Positions 3,676 through 29,482 of a stretch of 64,000 nt of DNA are shown piece after piece. Under the pieces are notes generated by a model. It was not told the origin of the DNA. It ran no database searches and was given only the letters and a program-made list of their open reading frames with translations. The position numbers were made by a program, and so were the translations under genes. This DNA is from Streptomyces sp. XD-27. Its GTDB lineage: Bacteria; Actinomycetota; Actinomycetes; Streptomycetales; Streptomycetaceae. The stretch is from the NCBI RefSeq assembly GCF_030553055.1, contig NZ_CP130713.1:6324001-6388000 (forward strand), given 5' to 3'. Numbering within the stretch: position 1 is the stretch's first letter; each line of letters begins with the position of its first letter.

Positions 3676-4728
3676 TCAGGAGGCCCCGGCGGCGAGCGTG
3701 GGCCGGGTCCAGTCGATGACGACCTTGCCGCACCGCCCGGAGCGGGCGGCCGCGAACGCCTCGGCATGCTGCTCGTAGCCGAAGCGGTGCGTGATGACGG
3801 GGCTGATGTCCAGGCCGTTCTGGAGCAGGACGGACATCGCGTACCAGGTCTCGTACATCTCCCGGCCGTAGATGCCGCGCAGCGTCAGCATGCGGGTCAC
3901 GATGGCCGCCATGTCGAGGGCGACCTCGCCGGTCGGCAGGCCCAGGATGGCGATCCGGCCGCCCGGGCTCATGTGGGCGATCATGTCCTGGAGGGCGTCG
4001 GCGCGGCCCGACATCTCCATGCCGACGTCGAAGCCCTCGCTCATCCGCAGGCCGGGCATGACGTCGGCGATGGCGTCCTGGCTGACATCCACGGCGAGGG
4101 TGGCGCCCATCTTGCGGGCCAGCTCCAGCCGGTAGGGGCTGACGTCGGTGACGACGACGCTGCGGGCGCCGGCGTGCCCGGCCACCGCGGCGGCCATCAT
4201 GCCGATCGGCCCGGCCCCGGTGATCAGCACGTCCTCGCCCAGCACCGGGAAGGACAGGGCGGTGTGCACGGCGTTGCCGAACGGGTCGAAGATCGCGGCG
4301 ACGTCGAGGTCGATCGGGTGCCGGTGCACCCACACGTTGGACTCGGGCAGCACGACGTACTCGGCGAACGCGCCGTCGGTGTGCACGCCCAGGCCGATCG
4401 TACGGATGCACAGGTGGCGGCGGCCCGCCATGCAGTTGCGGCACTTGCCGCACACCAGGTGGCCCTCGCCGCTGACCAGGTCGCCGACCGTGACGTCCTG
4501 GACACCGGGGCCGGTCTCCACGACCTCGCCGACGAACTCGTGGCCCAGCACCAGCGGTGCGCGCACGGTGCGGGCGGCCCAGTCGTCCCAGCTGTCGATG
4601 TGCAGATCCGTCCCGCAGATCCCGGTGCGCAGCACCCGGATCAGCACCTGCCCGGTGCCTGCTTGCGGTGCGGTGACGTCGGTCAGCTCCAGGCCAGGAC
4701 CGGCGGCGGTTTTTACCAGTGCCCTCAT
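3676..4728 (-). CDS. tdh: L-threonine 3-dehydrogenase
   Basis: 350 residues from the ATG at 4728 ([12 protein letters not shown]); the 17 codons before it in the open frame are not conserved sequence. It is a zinc-dependent medium-chain dehydrogenase. The catalytic zinc site is in GICGTDLHI and [10 protein letters not shown]. The structural-zinc cysteines are in [15 protein letters not shown], and the NAD-binding glycines are in [13 protein letters not shown]. It oxidises L-threonine to 2-amino-3-ketobutyrate, the substrate of the following kbl product. The two genes form an operon diverging from a LysR-type regulator 95 nt away, which is the likely regulator. Confidence 0.94.
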
Positions 4729-4823
4729 GGGCGACCACTGTGCTGGGCGACCGCGTTTCAGTCCATCGGTAATTTCCACGACTGCTTGTGAAGCTCCACT
4801 TCACAGCATGAGAGACTGGCCGG

Positions 4824-5746
4824 GTGATCGACCCACGCAGGCTCAGGGTCCTGCGGGCCCTCGCCGACCACGGCACGGTGACCGCGGCGGCCCAGGCGCT
4901 CTACCTCTCCCCGTCCGCAGTCTCCCAGCAGCTGGCCGCTCTGGAGACGGAGGTGGGCCACGCCCTGCTGGAACGGCGCGGCCGCTCGGTGCGGCTCACG
5001 GCCACCGGCGCCGTACTCGCCCGGCACGCCCAGCAGGTTGCCACGCAGCTGGAGCGCGCGGAGGCCGACATGGCCGCCGTGTCGGCCGGGCTGGCGGGCG
5101 TGGTGACCGTCGCGGCCTTCTCGACCGCCATCACCGAGGTGGTCACCCCCGCCGTGGTGGCGATGCGCTCGTCGGCCCCCCAGGTGCGGGTACAGGTCAA
5201 GGACGCCGAGGGCCGCGCCAGCCTGCGGCTGCTCCTCGACGGAGACGTCGACGTCGCGGTCGCGGTGGCGCACCGGGACACCCTGGGCGCGGACGAGGAG
5301 GCGATCCTGCGCGAGCCGCTGTACGCCGAGCCCTTCGACGCCGTACTGCCGCCCGGCCACCCCCTGGCCCACCACCCGACCGTCCCCCTGGCCGACCTGT
5401 CCACCGACCCGTGGATCACCCCCTGGCCGGGCAACCCGGTGCACGACGTCGTCCTGCGCGCCTGCGAGGACGCCGGCTTCCAGCCGCGCGTGGAATGCCT
5501 GTCCGACGACTTCCGCGCCGTGTGCGCCCTCGTCGCCGCCGACGCGGGCGTGGCCCTGGTCCCCCGCTCCGCCCTGCACTCCATCGACCTGGCCGCCGCC
5601 ACGGTCCGCCCCTCACCGGCCGCCCCCCGACCCGCCGGGTCTTCACCGCCGTCCGCCGCGGCAGCGAGCACCACCCCCTGCTGGGGCTGGTCCTCGACGG
5701 CCTCAGGAAGAACGCCGGCCGACTGGGCACCTCCCAGGGCGGCTGA
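4824..5746 (+). pseudogene. LysR-family regulator, frameshifted near its 3' end
   Basis: The N-terminal 260 residues are a normal LysR regulator: winged helix (RLRVLRALADHGTVTAAAQA, LSPSAVSQQLAALE) and a LysR substrate-binding domain up to VALVPRSALHSIDLAAATVRP. At the four C's at 5609-5612 the frame is lost. Adding one C restores PLTGRPPTRRVFTAVRRG and then HHPLLGLVLDGLRKNAG, ending at TGA 5744-5746, the family's usual C-terminus and a length of about 307. Without it the literal ORF runs to 5879 in unconserved sequence antisense to the parA gene. The gene diverges from tdh-kbl and probably controls it. Either a sequencing error or a real mutation; the C-terminal effector domain would be damaged in the latter case. 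Confidence 0.8.
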
Positions 5747-5769
5747 CGGCGGGTCCCTTACGGCTCCGA

Positions 5770-6801
5770 CTATGCGACCTCGAGCCGCTCGGTCAGAGCA
5801 CGAGCGAGCGCGTGGAACTCCTGGTAGCAGGTCATCACGTTCTTCTGATGGCCTCCGAGCGCTCCGTCGGACGCCTTGAGATCGAACATCGGCTTGCGGG
5901 CGTCGTGGGCGAGCGGCATCAGACTGCGGTAGTTCCGCAAGGTGGTGATCTCGTAGGTGCGATCGTCGGCGGACCAGGTCGGATGGCCCAGAATCGCGGT
6001 GCCGTACACCCAGGGAATCCGGGCGAGCCAGCGCTCGTATGCGCGAACCGGCCTGTCGAGGCGCACTCCCGGCTGCATGATCACGTAACCCAGCGGCCGC
6101 ATGGCCCCTGCCGGAGCCGAGATGGAGGCGGGGATCTTCGGCATCACGACGGTCTGCCACTGGTCACGCCAGTCGCGCAGGGTCGGACCGAGGTTGAGCA
6201 GACCCTTGAGGGAGAAGAGATCCGCGGCCATGGGCATGAGCACGGTGTCCGCGGCGATCAGAGCCGCGCGGTTGATCGCGCCGAGGTTCGGGCCGACATC
6301 GACGAGCACGAGCTGGGCGTCGACGGCCTTGGCCGCATGGTCGATGATGCGGTGGAAGGCTGTGGTGGTGCGGATCGCCGCCGGGTCGCCGCCGTAACCG
6401 TTGAGCCAGGCAGCGGAGAGCTTGTCCTCGAACTTGCTCAGCTCGAGGTTCCCCGGGAGTAACCAGAGCCCCTCCGTGACGTTCACCGGGGTGACGGCGG
6501 CGATATCGCCGGTGCCCTCCAGGATCGGCCGCACAGCGTCGGCGACGGTGCGCTGCCCTTCGGCACGGTGGAACAGCTTGCGCTGTTCCGGGTGGTCGTC
6601 CTGCGCGAACAGCTCGGAGTCCTTGCCCCAAAGCTCTTCCAGCTCCTCCTCGTCCAGGATCGCCGCGGTGAGGTTCGACTGGGGGTCGAGATCCACGGCG
6701 AGGACGCGGAGCCCCTGGCGCTGCAGCATGTGAGCGAGGTGGTAGGCGAGCGTCGTCTTGCCGACACCGCCCTTGTTGTTGAACAGCGCAACTGAGATCA
6801 C
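5770..6801 (-). CDS. orphan ParA/MinD-type ATPase
   Basis: 343 residues from the GTG at 6801. The deviant Walker A motif KGGVGKTTL lies within the first 20 residues, as usual for ParA, and is followed by VLAVDLDPQSNLTAAIL (the ParA DxDPQ segment) and QLVLVDVGPNLGAINRAAL (Walker B region). ParA ATPases move plasmids, chromosomes or protein complexes using ATP and a ParB-like partner. No ParB gene and no Streptomyces parS (TGTTTCACGTGAAACA) is nearby. The start overlaps the stop of a 41-codon ORF by GTGA. An in-frame ATG at 7023 with a GAGAGGAA ribosome-binding site would add about 74 basic residues and cannot be excluded. The ATPase call is firm; its role is unknown, but the context suggests a mobile-element or conflict function. 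Confidence 0.85.
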   Translation of the reverse strand: MISVALFNNKGGVGKTTLAYHLAHMLQRQGLRVLAVDLDPQSNLTAAILDEEELEELWGKDSELFAQDDHPEQRKLFHRAEGQRTVADAVRPILEGTGDIAAVTPVNVTEGLWLLPGNLELSKFEDKLSAAWLNGYGGDPAAIRTTTAFHRIIDHAAKAVDAQLVLVDVGPNLGAINRAALIAADTVLMPMAADLFSLKGLLNLGPTLRDWRDQWQTVVMPKIPASISAPAGAMRPLGYVIMQPGVRLDRPVRAYERWLARIPWVYGTAILGHPTWSADDRTYEITTLRNYRSLMPLAHDARKPMFDLKASDGALGGHQKNVMTCYQEFHALARALTERLEVA

Positions 6802-9321: not shown

Positions 9322-10742
9322 CACCCGTCGCACCCGAGATCGATCGCGCGCTCGACCACCCTGACCCCCGCGAGGCGGTCGAACGGGTGAAGGACGTGGT
9401 GCAGCGTCGGCTGCTTGCGGTGCATCCCTCGGCCAAGATCGTCCGGACCACCTTCTTCAACCACACCTACGTTCCTGACCTGCTGATGACGTGGAAGAAC
9501 GGCAGCCGGGCGGCTGAACGGCGGGTCTATCTTCGGGCTTCCTCCGATCCGGTTCTCCTCGCCAACGACGTGATGCTGCTCGAACGAGAGCAGCAACCGC
9601 TCGTCGTGCCGCTGGGGCAGGTCGGGGAAGGCCCTTCGTGGACCCGACTGGACGACATCGCGGGGGAGCGGCAGACGCTCGTTCTGGATCCCTTCGGACT
9701 TGGGGCCCTGCCTCTCCACTCGGCGACCCGCTCGCCGGTTGCACTCGCTTCCGACGCGATCGTCGAAGGCGGTCGCGGGATCATGGGACAGGACCAGGTG
9801 GAGCAGTTCCTCGCCTCGGTGGACCTGGGAGTTGGTGCGGCCCGCGAGGGCCGGGAGGCCCCGACTCGTGCCGCCCTGACCACGCTCGGCCGGCGCACGA
9901 CCCCGGGCGTGGCGCATCGGCTTTCCACTTTCATGGCCGCGATGTGGCAAGGCAGCGGCCGGTCGATGACGGACTTCCCTGGCAAGGTGCCGCTGCGCTC
10001 GTCCCTCGACGCCACCTCTTTGAGCCTGCTGTTGTCCTCGGAGGAGATCGGCGACGAAGACTTCTGGCGGCGTATCCAGCCGCTTGTGGATATCAAGCCG
10101 CTGCTCGACAGCGGCATCACGGACACCGAGAATCTGCAACACCTCATGCGTAGCGCCGTCGGCGCCTGGAAGGCCCATGTCTGCATGGTCGTCGAAGGGC
10201 GCAGCGCGGGCACCGGCGCGGTTGGCAGTTGGCGCTGGATGGTGGACCGAGGACGACTGGCCTTGCAGGGGCCCGATTTCATCGCGTACATCGCCGGCAG
10301 CCGCAAGGATCTGGAGTTCCCCGAGGAGCACGAGGTTCCGTTGCTGGCGGAGGTACGTGAGCGGGCGAACAGACACGGCATCACGCTCACGTCGATTCGC
10401 ATGATGACGCCGAACCGGAGTATCGGATACGACTCGCCTGGCGAAGATGTCACCAACGACCCGCAGTTGGACGGCATCAGCGCGGCGCTGGGGCAGGAGG
10501 AGGGAGTCGTCGAGGCTCTGGCTATGACACCCGGGGGGTACGCCTTGAGGTGTAACTTCTCCACACAGACGGCTGGCCCGCCCGGCGCTCGGGCGTTGCT
10601 CGTCTACGCCGATCTCTTGGGGACGGCTCTCCGTCTTCTGCGGCCGTTCGGTGAGGAGAACGCGGTCGTGCTGCGCGACCTGCTGGGCGGAGGGCCGGTG
10701 CCGCCGGCACAGTGGTCGCAGCCGACCCTGCCAGAGACGTAA
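9315..10742 (+). CDS. unknown island protein coupled to the nuclease-like gene
   Basis: 475 residues; ATG at 9315 with AGGGGAAG upstream, overlapping the preceding gene by 7 nt. No family is recognised and there is no signal peptide or membrane segment. The N-terminal 120 residues contain IVRTTFFNHTYVPDLLMTW and then ERRVYLRASSDPVLLAND. That is a PD...E-rich strand pattern which could be a degenerate PD-(D/E)xK or a binding module for the partner. The middle (TTLGRRTTPGVAHRLSTFMA, RSSLDATSLSLLLSSEEIG) is helical, and a conserved-looking segment SWRWMVDRGRLALQGPDF lies near residues 302-319. It probably works with the preceding protein as sensor or specificity subunit, as judged only from the overlap. 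Confidence 0.55.
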   Translation: MVTPVAPEIDRALDHPDPREAVERVKDVVQRRLLAVHPSAKIVRTTFFNHTYVPDLLMTWKNGSRAAERRVYLRASSDPVLLANDVMLLEREQQPLVVPLGQVGEGPSWTRLDDIAGERQTLVLDPFGLGALPLHSATRSPVALASDAIVEGGRGIMGQDQVEQFLASVDLGVGAAREGREAPTRAALTTLGRRTTPGVAHRLSTFMAAMWQGSGRSMTDFPGKVPLRSSLDATSLSLLLSSEEIGDEDFWRRIQPLVDIKPLLDSGITDTENLQHLMRSAVGAWKAHVCMVVEGRSAGTGAVGSWRWMVDRGRLALQGPDFIAYIAGSRKDLEFPEEHEVPLLAEVRERANRHGITLTSIRMMTPNRSIGYDSPGEDVTNDPQLDGISAALGQEEGVVEALAMTPGGYALRCNFSTQTAGPPGARALLVYADLLGTALRLLRPFGEENAVVLRDLLGGGPVPPAQWSQPTLPET

Positions 10743-22652: not shown

Positions 22653-24749
22653 TCAGCCGCCCTGGAGGATCGTCGTGCACAGCAGGGTGCTGCCGTCGTC
22701 CACCGTCCACGCCCAGTACCGTGTCCGGTCGCCCTGCCCGCGTACGCAGTGGCTCGCGTTGGCGCCCGCCGGGGCCCGGTAGACCCCGGTGATGTGCATG
22801 ATCTGGTTGTACGGGACGGGTACCCTCTGACTCCTGCTGCAGTCCACGGCCGTCATCGGCCCCACCGAGATCCGGTCGCCCGACTGCCGCCCGAGCAGGC
22901 AGTAGCTCGTGTGGAAGACGCGGGAGAGGCACAGGCTCCTGACCTCACCGGTGCTGACGGCCCGGTAGCTCCAGGACGCCTTGCCCACACCGCTGGGGCA
23001 CTGGGCGCCGGTGGTCCCGGTGACGCGGACCAGCGCCCGCCCGCTGCCGCACGACACCGGGTCCGGCGGCAGCTCGGCGCTCCACTTGACGGTGCGCTCG
23101 CCGCCGAAGCCGGTGTCGTGGACCGGGAGGCAGTCGCCGGTCGAGACGGCTTCGAACGCCTCCTCGGTGGGGTCGGGGGCCGGTGGCGTGGTCGGCGACT
23201 CGGTCTCGTCGTCGGCGTGGCTCGCGCTCCCGCTCGAACCGCTGTCTGAGCCGCTGCTCGAACCGCCCCCGCTCGTGCTGTCGTCCGAGCCGCTGCTCGG
23301 ATACGTGTCGCGTGTGGGCAGGGAGCCGGTCCCGCCGCCCGACGAACTGCTCGCCGTGGTCCCGCCCGTCGATCCGGAGGTGGTGTCGTCCTTCCAGGGC
23401 TGCCAGATGAAGACCGCGACCGCGACGAGCGCGAACACGAGCCAGGAGAAGCCGCCGGCCGAGGAGTTGGCGGTCCGCGGGGTGGACGACGGCCGGGCCC
23501 CGGATGACCGCCCGGACGCGGACGACCGCCGGGCCCCGGATGGCTGCCCGGACGCAGACGACGGGCGGGACGGAGCTGGGGCGCCGGTCCGGGCTGAGGG
23601 CCGCGCCTGCCGTGCGTTCCCCTGCGACCTGGCGCGCGCCCGCCTACGGGCCTCCTCCTCCCTGCGCTGCCGGGCCGCTTCCGCCCTGCGGTCCCGGGCG
23701 TCGCGCTCCCGCAGGGCGCGGGCCATCCGCTCCCGCTCCCGGCGCGCGGCCCGCTCCCGGGTGTCGACACGTGTGGGCCCCGGCGGCGGTACCGGCCGCG
23801 TCCGCGCGTCGAGCGTGGCGGCCTCCGCGCCCCCGTCCTCGTTCAGCGCCCGCCCTTGGGCCTCGTACTCCTGGATCAGCGCCGTCCACCGCGGCGGCAG
23901 CCAGCGCTCGCCGCGCTTCGACGTGCCCGTCCGGTCGAGCTCCTCCAGGAAGCCCCGCAGGATGTCGGCGGGGCCGGGCCGCCCGCCGGGATCGGCGGCC
24001 AGGCACGGGCGGACCAGCGGGGACAGCTCCTTGGGCAGCCCCGTCAGGTCGAGTTCGCCGCGCTGTACGAGGGTCAGCAGCCGGATCGTGTCGTCCGTGT
24101 CGGGGTAGGGCGGGCGGCCGACGGCGAGGTGGAAGAGCGTCGCGCCCAGCGAGTACACGTCGGACGCCGTCGTGGACGGTTCGGCGCGCGCCTGCTCCGG
24201 CGACGTGAACGCGATGGTGCCCAGCGTCAGCGACGTCCGCGTGATGTCGAAGGCGTGCGAGATACCGAAGTCGATGAGGCGTGGCCCGGCCAGGGGCAGC
24301 AGGATGTTCTGGGGTTTGACGTCCCGGTGGACGATGCCCTGCGCGTGCAGGGCCACCAGGGCCTGCGCGGTGCCCGCCGCGATCCAGCGCACCGCCGAAC
24401 CGGGCAGCCGGCCCGCGCTCCGGACGAGTTCGGACAGCGCGGGCGCCGGTATGTAGTCGATCGCCATCCAGGGCCGCTCGGCGTCCGGGTCGGCGTCCCG
24501 CACCCGGGCCGTGTACGCGCTGTCGACCCGCCGGGCCAGCGCCACCTCGCGCGCGAACCGCCGCCGATCGGTGTCGCTGACCGCGCCCTCGGCGAGCAGG
24601 GTCTTGACCGCGACGAGCGAACCGTCCGCCGCGGAACGCGCCAGATAGATCCGCCCCATACCCCCGGAGCCGAGCCGCCCCACCAACCGGTAGGCGCCCA
24701 GCCGCCGCGGATCGTCGCCGCCGAGCGGCCGCACCCCCATACCGGCCAT
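22653..24749 (-). CDS. membrane Ser/Thr protein kinase with extracytoplasmic domain
   Basis: 698 residues. The kinase domain occupies about 15-275: GRLGSGGMGRIYLA (Gly loop 27-32), K49, HRDVKPQN (141-148, catalytic D143), DFG (160-162) and the SPEQA activation-segment end, all intact. Next come an Arg/Glu-rich coiled region (RREEEARRRARARSQG), a Ser/Gly linker, one membrane helix (FSWLVFALVAVAVFIWQPW, about 440-458), a low-complexity Ser/Gly stalk and an extracytoplasmic domain of about 150 residues with eight cysteines. This is a PknB-like receptor kinase with a private sensor. It follows the 91-residue protein by 6 nt and the STAND NTPase gene in the same direction, so the three form an operon and probably one signalling unit. 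Confidence 0.92.
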   Translation of the reverse strand: MAGMGVRPLGGDDPRRLGAYRLVGRLGSGGMGRIYLARSAADGSLVAVKTLLAEGAVSDTDRRRFAREVALARRVDSAYTARVRDADPDAERPWMAIDYIPAPALSELVRSAGRLPGSAVRWIAAGTAQALVALHAQGIVHRDVKPQNILLPLAGPRLIDFGISHAFDITRTSLTLGTIAFTSPEQARAEPSTTASDVYSLGATLFHLAVGRPPYPDTDDTIRLLTLVQRGELDLTGLPKELSPLVRPCLAADPGGRPGPADILRGFLEELDRTGTSKRGERWLPPRWTALIQEYEAQGRALNEDGGAEAATLDARTRPVPPPGPTRVDTRERAARRERERMARALRERDARDRRAEAARQRREEEARRRARARSQGNARQARPSARTGAPAPSRPSSASGQPSGARRSSASGRSSGARPSSTPRTANSSAGGFSWLVFALVAVAVFIWQPWKDDTTSGSTGGTTASSSSGGGTGSLPTRDTYPSSGSDDSTSGGGSSSGSDSGSSGSASHADDETESPTTPPAPDPTEEAFEAVSTGDCLPVHDTGFGGERTVKWSAELPPDPVSCGSGRALVRVTGTTGAQCPSGVGKASWSYRAVSTGEVRSLCLSRVFHTSYCLLGRQSGDRISVGPMTAVDCSRSQRVPVPYNQIMHITGVYRAPAGANASHCVRGQGDRTRYWAWTVDDGSTLLCTTILQGG

Positions 24750-24755
24750 GCCGGG

Positions 24756-25031
24756 TTATTCCTCGGAGCCTTCGCCGTGGTGGATGTGCATCTCCCCGTT
24801 CATGACGGTGAAGACGCTGCCGTGGTCGTTCGCGGTGTTGGTCTGGACCGGGCCGGGGGCCTGGCTCTCGTCCCCCGGTGTGCTCTCGGGCTCGGCGCCG
24901 GATGGGGCGCCGGATGGGGTGCCGGGCGGGGTCTGGCGCACGTCGACGCGGTTGCCGCGCCCGGCCACGACGGGGCCGGACGCGTCGCCGCCGATGCGGA
25001 TCGTGTACTGGTCGCCTGATGCGGGTGCCAT
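24756..25031 (-). CDS. 91-residue protein with amyloid-motif-like segments
   Basis: ATG at 25031 with AAGGAG 8 nt upstream. The N-terminus YTIRIGGDASGPVVAGRGNR (residues 9-28) closely resembles the N-terminal segment of the neighbouring NTPase (IDVGGNAAGPVIAGDHNVVV). The middle is a Pro/Gly/Thr linker. The C-terminus (NDHGSVFTVMNGEMHIHHGE) resembles the tail of the cyclase-like protein 3.5 kb away. There is no enzyme domain, signal peptide or membrane segment. Short Gly/Asn/Val beta motifs of this kind pair with like motifs in bacterial amyloid-type signalling (RHIM/BASS), so it could be a two-ended adaptor bridging NTPase and kinase. The assignment is inference from pattern and operon position. 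Confidence 0.75.
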   Translation of the reverse strand: MAPASGDQYTIRIGGDASGPVVAGRGNRVDVRQTPPGTPSGAPSGAEPESTPGDESQAPGPVQTNTANDHGSVFTVMNGEMHIHHGEGSEE

Positions 25032-25061
25032 GAGGGAGCTCCTTGGGTGAGGTCGCTTCTA

Positions 25062-27629
25062 TCAGGAGGATTCCCGGGTCCACGTCTCCGACCCGCAGCC
25101 TTCGCACTCCACCGAACCGTCCGACGGTCCGGTCTCCTCGACCTGGGCGGTGGCTCCGTCGGGTGCGACGTCGATCGTGATCGTGCCGTATGCGCGCAGT
25201 GTTGTGCACGAGTCGGGAAAGTCCTCCCAGATCGGCAGCCTGCCGCGGTAATTGCCGTTACTGCCGGTGAGTTGGACGGTGGAGGGATTGCATCCCGGGT
25301 TCTCCGCGGTGTACGAGCCGGGTCCCGACGAGACGATCCTGACCGAGCCCGTGCTGGTACTCCATACGCCCGCGAGGTCGGTGCTCGCGGATGAGGCCGA
25401 CGGCTGATCGTTCGACTCCTGATGCTCCTTGACGGCGATGCCGCCGATGACGACGGCTGTGACGACGGCGATCACGGCGAGAGCCGAGCTGAGCGCGGAG
25501 GCGCCCGCGGCGGCCGTCGCGGCCGACGCGGCCCCGGCGCTCGCGGCACCCGAGGCGGCGGTGGCGCCCGCCGGTGCCGCGGCCGCGCTGGCCGCGGTAC
25601 CGCCCGCGTCTCCCACGCGCAACAGATGCGACAGGTCACCGTGCCCCGACAGCGCGCCTGTTGGATCGGGCCCCGCCAGCGTGCCTGTCGGGTCGGGTCC
25701 CGCCAGCGTGCCCGTGGGGTCCGGTCCGGCGAGGGCCTGGCCCGTCGGGTCGGGTCCGGCGAGAGTCTGGCCCGTGGGGTCGGGTCCGGCCAGGGTCTGC
25801 CCCGTCGGATCCGGCCCGGCCAGACTCTGCCCCGTCGGATCGGGCCCGGCCAGACTCTGCCCCGTCGGATCGGGCCCGGCCAGCGTGCCCGTGGGGTCGG
25901 GTCCGGCCAGGGTGCCCGTCGGGTCGGGCCCCGCCAGGCTCTGCCCGGTCGGATCGTTCCCGAGCTCGGCCATATGGTCCGTCGCCGCGTCGGGTGGTGT
26001 GCTCTGCGGGGCGACGCCGTCGCCGGATACGTCGGGCGGCCCGGCCGCATCCGGTGACGGCGACGGCGATGGTGACGGTGACGGTGACGGTGACGGAGAC
26101 GGGGCCGGTGACGGCGGCGGCGTGTACTGCTGGGCATTGAGCGCGGCGTCGGCGCCGTGGCCGTCACCCAGCTGCCGCCACAGCACCACCGCCTCGGCCA
26201 GGAGCACCGCGGAGACCACACGCCGGCCGGTCAGCAGGCTCCGGATGCCCTCCTCGTGGGTGAAGTAGGCCATGGCGTTCCTGTCGCCCGCCTGTCGGGC
26301 GGCGACCCAGCCGCGGCCGAGCAGTCGGCCCCACACACCGAACCGCAGCGAGCGGGCCAACGTGGGCGACACGGCCCGGGCGACCATCACCGCGAGGTCC
26401 GGCCGTCCGGCCAGCTCGGCCAGCCGGGCCGCCATCTCCAGCGCCCGGCCGTGGGCGGCGACCTCGGCCGGTGTCGTCGCCGGCTCGGCCGCCCATCGGG
26501 CGAGGTACTCGCACAGCCGGTCGGCGGGGAAGGGGGCGGTGCGCCGCTGCCGCAGCGCGGGAACGACGTCCGGCGCGCAGCGGTACCCGTGCTCCGCGGC
26601 CAGGGCCAGGCCGAGGTCGACCAGGCGGCCGCAGACCGCGGCCGGGTCCGTCACGTCGGCCAGGGTGCCGATGTGCGCCGGGGCCAACTCGGCGTCGCCC
26701 AGCGTCGCCAGCAGCCGCAGGGCGCCCATCGCCGCCGCGTCGAGCTGGTCGAACAGCAGGGGGAGCAGGTCCGCGATCGCGCCGGGGCGCGGCAGCGCCA
26801 CCGCGCCGGACGCGTCGGACCGGGCCAGCCCTGCCGCGCGGAGCAGCAGCAGGGGCCGACCGGCCGCGGCCTGCCACAGCTCGTCGGCACCGGCGCGTTC
26901 GCTCTCGGGTAGGGGCCGGTGCAGCTCCCGGGCGAGCAGCTCCCGACCCGCCGCGCGGTCCAGCCCCTGCACCTCCAGCACCGTGCCGTCGCCGAACAGC
27001 GATCGGTCGTGGCCGGCGAAGACGAACGTCGCGTCCGGGGCCGCGTCCATGAGCTCCCGCAACTGCTCCAGGGACAGGTCGGCGTTGTCGACGTACACGA
27101 CGACCCGCACTCCGGTCATGAGTCGCCGCAGCTCGGCGCCCGACGGGGCGTACCCCGCGGCCTCGTAGCAGGCTTCGAACACCTCCTGGGCCAGGTCCCC
27201 GACGTCCCGGTGGGCCGCGCTCAGGAACACCACGCCGTCCGGCCCCGGTTCCAGGCGCCGCGCCACGTATCGCAGGAGCGTGCTCTTGCCGACCCCCGGC
27301 GGGCCCCACAGCTGGACCGGGCCGCCCGCCCGGACGGCGTCGGCCAGCGCCGCGGCCTCGGCGTCCCGGCCCAGCGGGTCGCGCTCCCGCCGCGGCAGCA
27401 GCTCGACCCGCCCCCGGCGCTCCGGCCGGGGGCGCTCCCCGCCCACCAGCAGGGTCACGGTGGAACCGTGCTGCGCGTCGACCACCACATTGTGATCGCC
27501 CGCGATCACGGGCCCCGCCGCGTTCCCGCCGACGTCTATCCGGTGCACGGTTCGCGCGCTCCCGTCCGGAGCCTCCCCGTCGGGGCCGTTCGCCGCTCCG
27601 ACTGCATCGTCCGCGTCTTCCATCGCCAC
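25062..27629 (-). CDS. membrane-anchored STAND NTPase with N-terminal amyloid-like motif
   Basis: 855 residues. Order: a short motif (VHRIDVGGNAAGPVIAGDHN, about 29-48, then VVVDAQHGSTVTLL); a STAND/AAA NTPase with P-loop GPPGVGKS (109-116), Walker B-like VVVYVDNAD and FVFAGHD; an arm of helical repeats to about residue 490; a Pro-Ser run; about eleven AGPDPTG-type repeats (near 560-680); an Ala-rich stretch; one membrane helix (ALAVIAVVTAVVIGGIAV); and a C-terminal extracytoplasmic beta domain with two cysteine pairs (PGCNP/DSCTT, VECEGCG). STAND proteins are ATP-driven switches that oligomerise on ligand sensing. It is first in the operon with the adaptor (30-nt gap) and kinase. GTG 27629 or ATG 27623 may be the start. 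Confidence 0.82.
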   Translation of the reverse strand: MAMEDADDAVGAANGPDGEAPDGSARTVHRIDVGGNAAGPVIAGDHNVVVDAQHGSTVTLLVGGERPRPERRGRVELLPRRERDPLGRDAEAAALADAVRAGGPVQLWGPPGVGKSTLLRYVARRLEPGPDGVVFLSAAHRDVGDLAQEVFEACYEAAGYAPSGAELRRLMTGVRVVVYVDNADLSLEQLRELMDAAPDATFVFAGHDRSLFGDGTVLEVQGLDRAAGRELLARELHRPLPESERAGADELWQAAAGRPLLLLRAAGLARSDASGAVALPRPGAIADLLPLLFDQLDAAAMGALRLLATLGDAELAPAHIGTLADVTDPAAVCGRLVDLGLALAAEHGYRCAPDVVPALRQRRTAPFPADRLCEYLARWAAEPATTPAEVAAHGRALEMAARLAELAGRPDLAVMVARAVSPTLARSLRFGVWGRLLGRGWVAARQAGDRNAMAYFTHEEGIRSLLTGRRVVSAVLLAEAVVLWRQLGDGHGADAALNAQQYTPPPSPAPSPSPSPSPSPSPSPSPDAAGPPDVSGDGVAPQSTPPDAATDHMAELGNDPTGQSLAGPDPTGTLAGPDPTGTLAGPDPTGQSLAGPDPTGQSLAGPDPTGQTLAGPDPTGQTLAGPDPTGQALAGPDPTGTLAGPDPTGTLAGPDPTGALSGHGDLSHLLRVGDAGGTAASAAAAPAGATAASGAASAGAASAATAAAGASALSSALAVIAVVTAVVIGGIAVKEHQESNDQPSASSASTDLAGVWSTSTGSVRIVSSGPGSYTAENPGCNPSTVQLTGSNGNYRGRLPIWEDFPDSCTTLRAYGTITIDVAPDGATAQVEETGPSDGSVECEGCGSETWTRESS
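25650..25965 (-). repeat. in-frame 30/33-bp tandem repeats coding AGPDPTG(QSL/TL)
   Basis: About eleven head-to-tail units alternate between 30 and 33 bp, coding AGPDPTGTL or AGPDPTGQSL within the STAND protein. Units are nearly identical at DNA level, so the array is recently expanded and likely variable in number. It lies just cytoplasmic of the membrane helix and acts as a spacer or interaction stalk. Confidence 0.8.
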
Positions 27630-27737
27630 ACCACTCTCCCCGTCGCGGAGCAGGTGACCGCCCCCTGGCGGCCCAGCGCCACGCTAATGACCGCCACTGG
27701 CGGCAATACCGTCACACGACTGTTTTCCGCTCACTTC

Positions 27738-27793
27738 CTCGCTGGGCGAAGGACTTCCTCGCCGGGCGACTTCCTCGCTAGGCGAAGGCGATG
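27738..27793. repeat. tandem repeat spanning the stop codon of the Crp-type gene
   Basis: Three units of CTTCCTCGCTGGGCGA (spacing about 20 and 16 bp) run from the intergenic region into the 3' end of the leftward Crp gene. The third unit carries its TAG stop (27778-27780). Confidence 0.7.
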
Positions 27794-28506
27794 CTGCTCA
27801 ACAGGGCGAGGTCGTCCACCCTGATGCTGCGGTAGCCCGTGGAGACCACGCCCGTCTGCCGGAGCCTGCGCAGCGCCTTGTGCACGGTCGGCTCCGCCGC
27901 GCCGGACAGCGCGGCCAACTCCGGCTGCGTGATCGGCCAGTGGATCACCGCTCCCTCGCCGGCCCGCTCCCCGTACGTCATCGCGATCTGGTGCAGCACC
28001 CGGGCCAGCCGGGTGGCGGCGTCGCATCCGGTGAAGTCGATGCGATGGGCGTTCGCGACGCGGAGTTTGGACACGATGGACGCGTTGACCGCGTGCGCGA
28101 TCGCGGGGTCGCGCCGCATGCAGTCCAGGAAGTCGCCGCGCGTGACGACCCGGGCGACGACGGGCCCGCAGGTGGCGACCGTCGCCGACCGGGGCCGGCC
28201 GTCCACGGCGGCGAGTTCGCCGACCAGGTCCCCGCCCATCCGGACCGCCAGCAGGGCGTCCCGGCCGTCGTCGGTGCGACCCGTCGCCTTGACCACTCCG
28301 TCCAGCAGGATCAGGACGAAGGTCGTCCGCTCGGACTCCCGTATGAGCACGCGGTCGGCCGGGTACCGCGCCTGGGCGCCCAGGGCCAGCAGCCGGTCGC
28401 GCGCGGCCGGGGCGACCCCGCCCAGCAGGCTCGACCGCGGCCAGCTCCACCCCTCGCGGGGCCGCTGCCCGGCCGCGCCCCGGTCCGGATCTCTTCCACC
28501 CGTCAT
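27778..28506 (-). CDS. Crp/Fnr-type cyclic-nucleotide-binding regulator
   Basis: 242 residues. The cNMP-binding barrel shows an intact phosphate-binding cassette: GGDLVGELAAVDGRPRSATV (92-110) with E97 and R106, the residues that hold ribose and phosphate in CRP. A long helix and a C-terminal winged helix follow (ITQPELAALSGAAEPTVHK, then LRRLRQTGVVS). It is divergent from the nucleotidyl-cyclase-like gene (168 nt apart) and in line with the STAND-adaptor-kinase operon, whose first gene begins 148 nt downstream. A cyclase beside its receptor suggests a local second-messenger circuit. The Crp binding site may be the palindrome at 28617. Confidence 0.88.
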   Translation of the reverse strand: MTGGRDPDRGAAGQRPREGWSWPRSSLLGGVAPAARDRLLALGAQARYPADRVLIRESERTTFVLILLDGVVKATGRTDDGRDALLAVRMGGDLVGELAAVDGRPRSATVATCGPVVARVVTRGDFLDCMRRDPAIAHAVNASIVSKLRVANAHRIDFTGCDAATRLARVLHQIAMTYGERAGEGAVIHWPITQPELAALSGAAEPTVHKALRRLRQTGVVSTGYRSIRVDDLALLSSIAFA

Positions 28507-28616
28507 CCCGAGTCCCCCGTCTACGAGATGGCCCCGCGGCCGGATCCAGTATTGCGACGGGATCTCCAGCCTTCAATCGGGGTGACATGGGAATTCGGGC
28601 GCGAGGAGCCCTTGCC

Positions 28617-28627
28617 GTGACCGTCAC
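28617..28627. promoter_or_regulatory. GTGAC-C-GTCAC palindrome between crp-type and cyclase-type genes
   Basis: A perfect 5-bp inverted repeat lies 47 nt before the cyclase-like start codon. Its GTGA half-site matches the consensus half of Crp operators, although the spacing is much shorter than classic TGTGA-N6-TCACA. Candidate operator only. Confidence 0.35.
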
Positions 28628-28674
28628 CGACGGATAGGGGAATACGAGTCCGGCCACCGCACCAGGAGGACCGT

Positions 28675-29403
28675 ATGGGACAAGAGTTGGAATACCGGGC
28701 CTTGTTGGCCGTCGACATCGAGCATTCCGCGGGACGCGGCAACGTCGCGTTCCAGCAGATCCGCGGCGTCCTTTCGGCGGCGCTGCGCGAGTCGTTCGAA
28801 GAGAGCGGGATCGACTGGGAGGCATGCCTGCGCGACAGTCTGGGCGACGGCATACGGGTGGCCGCGCCGGCCGGAGTGCGCAAGACCCGGCTGATCCACC
28901 CGCTGGTACACGAGCTCGAGGTCCGCCTCCGCGCCCACAACCGCAACGCGGGGCCGGCGACCCGGATCCGCGTCCGGATCGCCCTGCACGCGGGCGACGT
29001 CTGCCTCGGCCCGGGCGGCGAGTTCACCGGCCGGCCGCTCGAGGTCCTCGCCCGGCTCCTCGACGCGGCTCCGCTGCGCGACGCCCTGGCGGCGGCTCCG
29101 GAGACCGTGCCCGCCGCGCTCCTCGTCTCGCGGCACTTCTACGACGAGACGGTTCGACACGGTTATCCCGGAATCGATCCGGACACCTTTCGCAAAATCA
29201 CCGTCACCGAGAAGGAATACACCGCGGACGCCTGGCTCCACCTGACGGGATACGCGGCGGTTCCGCCGGCGCCCGCACCCGGCGGCGATCCCGGCCAACG
29301 AGCCCCGGGGCACTCGAAGATGGTCAACAAAGCCTCGGGGAACGGTGTCGTCTACGCGACGCAGAACGGCACCCAGAACATCACCATCAACGGAAAGGCA
29401 TGA
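28675..29403 (+). CDS. class III nucleotidyl-cyclase-like protein with C-terminal amyloid-like tail
   Basis: 242 residues, ATG with CAGGAGGACC upstream. The cyclase fold is recognised by LLAVDIEHSAGRG (metal Asp D14), LRDSLGDGIRVAAP (second metal Asp D58 in GDG), RIRVRIALHAGDVCLG and FTGRPLEVLARLLDAA. In the last the transition-state Arg (R127) is kept but the usual Asn is replaced by Glu, so activity or substrate may differ from adenylate cyclase. After a Pro/Gly linker the protein ends with SKMVNKASGNGVVYATQNGT then QNITINGKA, a Gly/Asn-rich beta motif like those of the adaptor and STAND proteins. It is divergent from the Crp-type receptor gene. It probably belongs to NTPase-linked conflict signalling; this is inference. 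Confidence 0.75.
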   Translation: MGQELEYRALLAVDIEHSAGRGNVAFQQIRGVLSAALRESFEESGIDWEACLRDSLGDGIRVAAPAGVRKTRLIHPLVHELEVRLRAHNRNAGPATRIRVRIALHAGDVCLGPGGEFTGRPLEVLARLLDAAPLRDALAAAPETVPAALLVSRHFYDETVRHGYPGIDPDTFRKITVTEKEYTADAWLHLTGYAAVPPAPAPGGDPGQRAPGHSKMVNKASGNGVVYATQNGTQNITINGKA

Positions 29404-29413
29404 AGGAGCGCTC

Positions 29414-29482
29414 GTGAACGACGAGCTGGCCGTGCCGGCGGAAGCGGGTGCCGCGGCTCCCGGGAGCCGTGACCCGCCGCCG
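29414..29482 (+). pseudogene. start of a truncated gene behind the cyclase-like gene
   Basis: AAGGAG lies 5 nt before a GTG at 29414, 10 nt after the cyclase stop. The frame (MNDELAVPAEAGAAAPGSRD) has good codon bias but soon runs antisense into the 3' end of the metallopeptidase gene. It looks like the beginning of a lost second operon gene. A perfect 16-bp palindrome (CGGCTCCCGGGAGCCG, 29454-29469) at the junction may end both transcripts. Confidence 0.4.

Follow-up and report, generated by a model that had tools for sequence, protein, structure and literature searches.

Architecture of the Locus

We analyzed a 64,000-nucleotide stretch of DNA (the window; G000:C1:6324001-6388000) from Streptomyces sp. 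XD-27, which has a one-contig genome of 7.5 Mb, and within it a locus encoding a STAND-type NTPase, a 91-amino acid (aa) protein, a Ser/Thr kinase, a Crp-type regulator and a cyclase-like protein. Our comparisons indicate that the 91-aa protein carries two different short motifs, one (motif A) in common with the N terminus of the NTPase and the other (motif B) in common with the C terminus of the cyclase-like protein, and they point to it as an adaptor between the two. The five open reading frames (ORFs) and the four short segments singled out in a preliminary description of this DNA were all confirmed in place. Searches of Pfam, NCBIfam and PADLOC recognized the kinase, the AAA/STAND-like domain and the Crp-type regulator among the five window proteins, and returned zero matches for the 91-aa and cyclase-like proteins.

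The NTPase (855 aa; 25062 to 27629, minus strand) was delineated from Pfam matches, hydropathy and an alignment of orthologs. Its STAND/NLR core matched AAA_16 and AAA_22 above cut-off and nSTAND_NTPase5 below it. From the N terminus, the protein consists of motif A (residues 33 to 50; 27480 to 27533; profile score 65), the AAA/NTPase domain, a helical region, a low-complexity linker, a predicted transmembrane segment (residues 715 to 733; 25431 to 25487 as computed from the ORF; mean Kyte–Doolittle hydropathy 2.59) and a predicted ectodomain with four cysteines, modeled as an eight-stranded barrel (25062 to 25391). A weak hydropathy peak at residues 465 to 483 falls within the helical region. 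The kinase (22653 to 24749, minus strand; Pkinase, 2.3e-38 in Pfam) has a Cys-containing ectodomain and one transmembrane segment, placed by hydropathy at residues 430 to 448. Hydropathy thus agrees with the earlier proposal that the NTPase and the kinase are both single-pass membrane proteins, each having one strong transmembrane segment. The NTPase (hereafter STAND) is predicted to cross the membrane once and to carry an ectodomain that is exchangeable between loci.

The adaptor ORF (24756 to 25031, minus strand) encodes motif A at residues 13 to 31 (24939 to 24995; profile score 60, shuffled maximum −2.4), a Pro-rich linker, and motif B at residues 64 to 85 (24777 to 24842; profile score 52, shuffled maximum 0.4). 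Among 10 adaptor sequences, the ends are conserved and the linker is variable. The Crp-type regulator (27778 to 28506, minus strand) combines a cyclic nucleotide-binding domain (cNMP_binding, 6e-16) with a Crp-type helix-turn-helix (HTH_Crp_2, 5e-13), both from Pfam, as expected of the Crp/Fnr family. The cyclase-like protein (28675 to 29403, plus strand), with a predicted class III cyclase fold, ends in a tail that carries motif B at residues 218 to 238 (29326 to 29388; profile score 53).

Two Unrelated Motif Families Meet on the Adaptor

The motifs were compared across 56 sources (the window and loci L042, L008, L010 and L051 to L102), with 200 shuffles per pair. In 39 of 41 loci, the N termini of STAND and adaptor scored above every shuffle; for the C termini of adaptor and cyclase, this was so in 31 of 39. 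The same held in 35 of 37 loci for the C termini of the adaptor and of hp152, a small helical protein found in relatives of this locus. For the window's own pairs, the score was reached by 0 of 1,000 shuffles (STAND and adaptor N termini) and by 1 of 1,000 (adaptor and cyclase C termini). Cross comparisons were at chance, with median z values of 0.55 (STAND N terminus and adaptor C terminus), 0.09 (adaptor N terminus and cyclase C terminus) and 0.62 (STAND N terminus and cyclase C terminus). The comparison of the adaptor's two ends with each other is an artifact, the two compared segments overlapping by 10 residues, and was not used. Profiles built from 85 A and 108 B segments, scored with our own profile scorer, gave z values of about 16 for segments of their own family and about 0 for those of the other. 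By sequence, motif A (N termini of STAND and adaptor) and motif B (C termini of the adaptor, the cyclase-like protein and, in relatives, hp152) are therefore two unrelated families, and the 91-aa protein is bivalent by its motifs. The preliminary description had seen similar short β segments in three proteins; the similarities do exceed chance, and a single motif common to all of the segments is ruled out by the chance-level cross comparisons and the near-zero profile cross-scores.

The profile scan for both motifs covered 1,012 called genes. Some of the STANDs that seemed to lack motif A (e.g., L062, L094 and L097 to L099) reflect start-call errors, with the motif present in open frame. At L041, a 712-aa protein near the module (3741 to 5879) carries a further motif of this sort at its N terminus (VTGPVVQAGTIH).

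Conservation of the Module

When 150 genomes of the genus were searched for the cyclase, members of the broad family turned up in 89 and close orthologs (46% identity or more) in 7, that of the window among them. In the six other close-ortholog loci (L007 and L041 to L045), the cyclase, divergent Crp, STAND and small protein occur in unchanged order, and hp152 follows the cyclase in all except L044. Searching named genomes with a STAND profile yielded 52 loci, 50 of them with STAND. Among the 52, an upstream Crp was present in 43, the cyclase in 45 (divergent in 38) and hp152 in 36, and the adaptor model found the downstream protein in 37. Of these downstream proteins, 35 are bivalent and 2 (L098 and L099) join motif A to another C-terminal domain. 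Four loci (L051, L058, L076 and L080) stop at a contig edge right after STAND. The full set of Crp, divergent cyclase, STAND and adaptor is found at 34 of the 50 STAND loci, and 33 of these also have hp152. The co-occurrence predicted by the preliminary description is thus found for these four genes and not for the kinase, which is not conserved with the module. Among 245 genomes of the order, 21 have some match to the adaptor and 10 have near-full-length copies, at 12 places in all; the module is accessory and patchy.

In L098 (12277 to 12711) and L099 (12287 to 12715), motif A of the downstream protein matches the neighboring STAND (0 of 1,000 shuffles), and a helical-looking C-terminal domain stands in place of motif B; for the L098 protein, Pfam gave no match above cut-off. 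Past hp152, L009 (5916 to 9277) and L045 (6277 to 9235) have a gene that looks vWA-like by eye, in a similar gene order, and L009 also has a PP2C-type phosphatase gene.

Natural Rewiring and Receptor Swaps

An adaptor occurs together with motif B on the cyclase in 33 loci, the window included. Only three loci have motif B on the cyclase and no adaptor (L058, L076 and L080), and all three are truncated by the contig end just after STAND. In five adaptor-less loci (L062, L074, L075, L078 and L079), the cyclase itself starts with motif A and lacks motif B. A 2 × 2 table of adaptor against cyclase motif gives a Fisher p of 7e-5, with the five rewired loci forming one clade and not independent events. 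They come from Saccharothrix, Goodfellowiella and Lentzea, all of the Pseudonocardiales. L090 has an adaptor and a cyclase tail below the B threshold, and L054 and L081 have adaptors, the cyclase not being called in the motif scan.

L008 and L010 have another receptor, a NACHT NTPase. The adaptor there retains motif B, and its altered N terminus matches the altered N terminus of the receptor (0 of 1,000 shuffles each). The rewiring and the NACHT swap together provide the best evidence that motif A faces the receptor and motif B the outputs. By comparison of loci, a bridging role for the adaptor is well supported. The small protein had been proposed to bridge the NTPase and the kinase; the bridge indicated here runs from STAND, through motif A, to the cyclase and hp152, through motif B, and does not extend to the motif-less kinase.

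The Kinase Is Best Seen as a Local Neighbor

In the window, the kinase gene begins 6 bp past the adaptor, and in 13 loci (L082 to L091 and L093 to L095) a distinct Ser/Thr kinase is encoded downstream of the adaptor on the same strand. These arrangements would suit a scheme in which the small protein joins STAND to the receptor kinase and the kinase is the output, a scheme to which we give very little credence. The profile scan found neither motif A nor motif B in the kinase, the gene after the adaptor varies between loci and is unrelated elsewhere, and in the 13 loci other genes lie between the adaptor and the kinase. Moreover, the kinase ectodomain, present in 31 of 150 Streptomyces-genus genomes, lies on contigs other than that of the module in the module-bearing genomes G061, G139 and G145. 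The missing motif, the variable gene after the adaptor and the unlinked ectodomain rule out the kinase as a conserved member of the module.

The Cyclase-Like Protein, hp152, and the Wider Cyclase Family

Because a search of PDB sequences with the cyclase profile gave no match, a fold comparison with the predicted structure was needed; this matched the class III nucleotidyl cyclase fold. The motif B tail lies outside the globular domain (predicted local distance difference test score [pLDDT] about 44 to 54). The catalytic positions (two metal-binding Asp, an Asn and an Arg) were assigned from the motif positions of class III cyclases, and D14, D58 and R127 are kept in 37 of 37 sequences. In hp152, a hydrophobic N-terminal stretch precedes the C-terminal motif B; over its best 19 residues, the hydropathy has a median of 1.33, below the level of 1.6 used for transmembrane segments, and Pfam gave no match. 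An hp152-like protein with a B-like C terminus is encoded elsewhere in the window's genome (G000:C1:973392-973778; L173, 1462 to 1953; 45% identity) and could act in trans.

We also read 65 cyclase loci (L046 to L050 and L103 to L162) drawn from the genus-wide cyclase search. The next gene is co-directional in 59 of them, and a Crp gene is present in 52. With one short cyclase excluded from the pairing set, 58 usable pairs remained, in which the cyclase tail scored a mean of 79 against the N terminus of its own next protein and 45 against those of others. For 13 representatives below 50% identity, 0 of 10,000 re-pairings reached the observed sum; the own partner ranked first in 6, all 200 shuffles were beaten in 5, and 5 gave no signal. 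Direct cyclase–partner pairing seems from these sequences to be a common design and the adaptor an elaboration. The window's genome has a second cyclase–Crp pair, in L050 (G000:C1:4775600-4795500; cyclase at 9501 to 10301), beside ribosomal and elongation-factor genes, a setting identical in L049; its cyclase tail matches the N terminus of the next protein (0 of 1,000 shuffles).

In L118, L136 and L128, the paired motifs of the cyclase tail and the partner N terminus are 97 to 100% identical at the DNA level. This points to gene conversion, or to a recent copying event from one gene of the pair to the other, and is a caveat to the direct-pairing result. Such identity in paralogous loci would favor the explanation that the matching segments of the module are functionless products of DNA copying (duplication or gene conversion) between neighboring genes. 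In the window, the two A copies are identical at 10 of 18 residues and use the same codon at only 3 of those 10, so they are not a recent DNA copy. Both motifs are also retained across genera despite the variable adaptor linker, and the gain of motif A on the cyclase accompanies the absence of both adaptor and motif B. We regard the copying explanation as highly improbable.

A Proposed Receptor–Adaptor–Cyclase Signalosome

We lean toward the view that the module is a membrane-anchored, NLR-type receptor–adaptor–cyclase/Crp signalosome, a variant of the bacterial NLR amyloid-motif systems. This view starts from observed gene co-conservation, two motif families, adaptor bivalency and rewiring without the adaptor, and it draws on the predicted cyclase fold and transmembrane topology. 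STAND would sense an extracellular cue through its exchangeable C-terminal ectodomain, assemble through its NTPase and present its N-terminal motif A, which would recruit or template its counterpart on the adaptor. At its other end, the adaptor would use motif B to recruit or template the motif B copies of the cyclase-like protein and, in loci that have it, hp152. Once clustered, the cyclase would alter a signal, a cyclic nucleotide or another nucleotide, that the neighboring Crp reads, and clustered hp152 may injure the membrane in the way suggested for Bell domains. We infer homotypic binding between motifs, assembly of the amyloid type, catalysis by the cyclase, a ligand for Crp, and the trigger and phenotype; amyloid chemistry is plausible from motif placement, composition and known systems. 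We likewise infer the cyclic-nucleotide output to Crp and a role in defense rather than in stress or developmental signaling. As a bolder and rather tentative form of this proposal, the module may be a two-code amyloid relay, in which the adaptor converts the motif of a transmembrane NLR-type receptor to an unrelated second motif that recruits both a cyclase and a killer protein.

The same comparative evidence would fit if the motifs were ordinary short β-pairing or oligomerization tags, holding together a finite, constitutive receptor–adaptor–cyclase complex with no amyloid and no templating. Resemblance to known amyloid motifs bears on this alternative. Of 54 STANDs, 48 have a motif A that fits the pattern h-[AV]-G-x-x-N-x-[VIL], as do 35 of 41 adaptors; most copies lack the core glutamine of the RHIM tetrad. 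The preliminary description had likened the segments to BASS and RHIM motifs. For motif A this survives as a weak BASS3-type match, the profile scores against two printed peptides being reached by 26 and 36 of 1,000 shuffles; pairwise comparison with the Frankia BASS3-type peptide is also weak, giving p ≤ 0.05 for 7 of 54 STANDs and 9 of 41 adaptors. Motif B is unrelated to RHIM, and its profile showed no likeness to the same two peptides (537 and 385 of 1,000 shuffles). Against ordinary tags, the terminal motifs lie on low-confidence tails outside the globular domains and have a Gly/Asn/Val-rich pattern, and the NLR/effector gene setting is like that described for amyloid signalosomes (PMC7889193). 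We consider such tags somewhat unlikely.

Several observations weigh against the signalosome, beginning with the weak BASS3 match of motif A and the lack of one for motif B. The rewired loci, as one clade, amount to few independent events. L057, L065 and L096 have a STAND with motif A, with neither adaptor nor cyclase found nearby, and the cyclase of L077 has neither motif. Partial Mantel co-variation was not partner-specific (partial r of 0.50 for A with A and 0.54 for STAND N terminus with cyclase C terminus) and was not used. At the position of the expected catalytic Asn, the cyclase has Glu in 32 of 37 sequences and Val in 5, so it may be inactive; paralogs L048 to L050 have Asn. Control of the operon by Crp, as had been suggested, finds no backing in the canonical GTGA-N-TCAC palindrome, which occurs in 1 of 35 divergent intergenic regions, that of the window. 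Other palindromes are frequent there (e.g., GAGG-N3-CCTC in 10 of 35, with 0.4 expected when kinship is ignored). Finally, hp152 in the window is reduced to about 15 codons (29414 to 29458, plus strand) that, compared by eye with hp152 of relatives, resemble the start of the gene after the cyclase, and then the likeness ends.

Relation to Known Systems

NLR/Bell BASS signalosomes likewise pair an NTPase receptor bearing an N-terminal short motif with neighboring small proteins bearing a C-terminal motif, in clustered genes of filamentous actinobacteria (PMC7889193, PMC8086366, PMC9815663, PMC12261475). In those systems, one motif is common to receptor and effector, whereas here there are two unrelated motifs and a bivalent adaptor, a cyclase and Crp as partner, and a receptor predicted to span the membrane and carry an ectodomain. 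In the module, the NLR N terminus and the effector C terminus do not carry a common motif, STAND having A and the cyclase and hp152 having B. The Bell domain is a helical bundle with a hydrophobic transmembrane helix and a C-terminal motif; hp152 has a C-terminal motif B and the median hydropathy given above.

NTP-dependent conflict systems also combine a homotypic adaptor principle with STAND NTPases and cyclic nucleotide cyclase domains, with CRP-like regulators tied to some systems; their adaptors are mostly α-helical domains, whereas those of the module are tags of about 20 residues (PMC7159879, PMC8195603). As in Pycsar, a class III-fold protein lies beside a cyclic nucleotide-binding protein, and in PADLOC the Crp matches PycTIR and Pycsar models. 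Unlike in Pycsar, the partner is a DNA-binding Crp (HTH_Crp_2), not a transmembrane or TIR effector, and the cyclase-like protein has no PADLOC match.

Searches of a library of open-licence papers returned no account of a bivalent adaptor, nor of an NLR linked through motifs of this kind to a cyclase and Crp. The published bacterial search was aimed at motifs that recur between neighboring Bell and NLR genes (PMC9815663); it would miss a system in which the adaptor swaps one motif for another. A two-code relay would connect one receptor to both a transcriptional (Crp) and a lethal output, and it would add to prokaryotes an adaptor for amyloid motifs and to the NLRs a class that spans the membrane; we found no description of either. 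If the proposal is correct, the module would offer a compact, possibly orthogonal motif pair. Bacterial NLR signaling would then have adaptors, could branch to two outputs and could be rewired by moving a tag of ~20 residues. The large cyclase family of the genus Streptomyces (89 of 150 genomes; Crp in 52 of 65 loci) would be pointed to as a frequent partner of such receptors.

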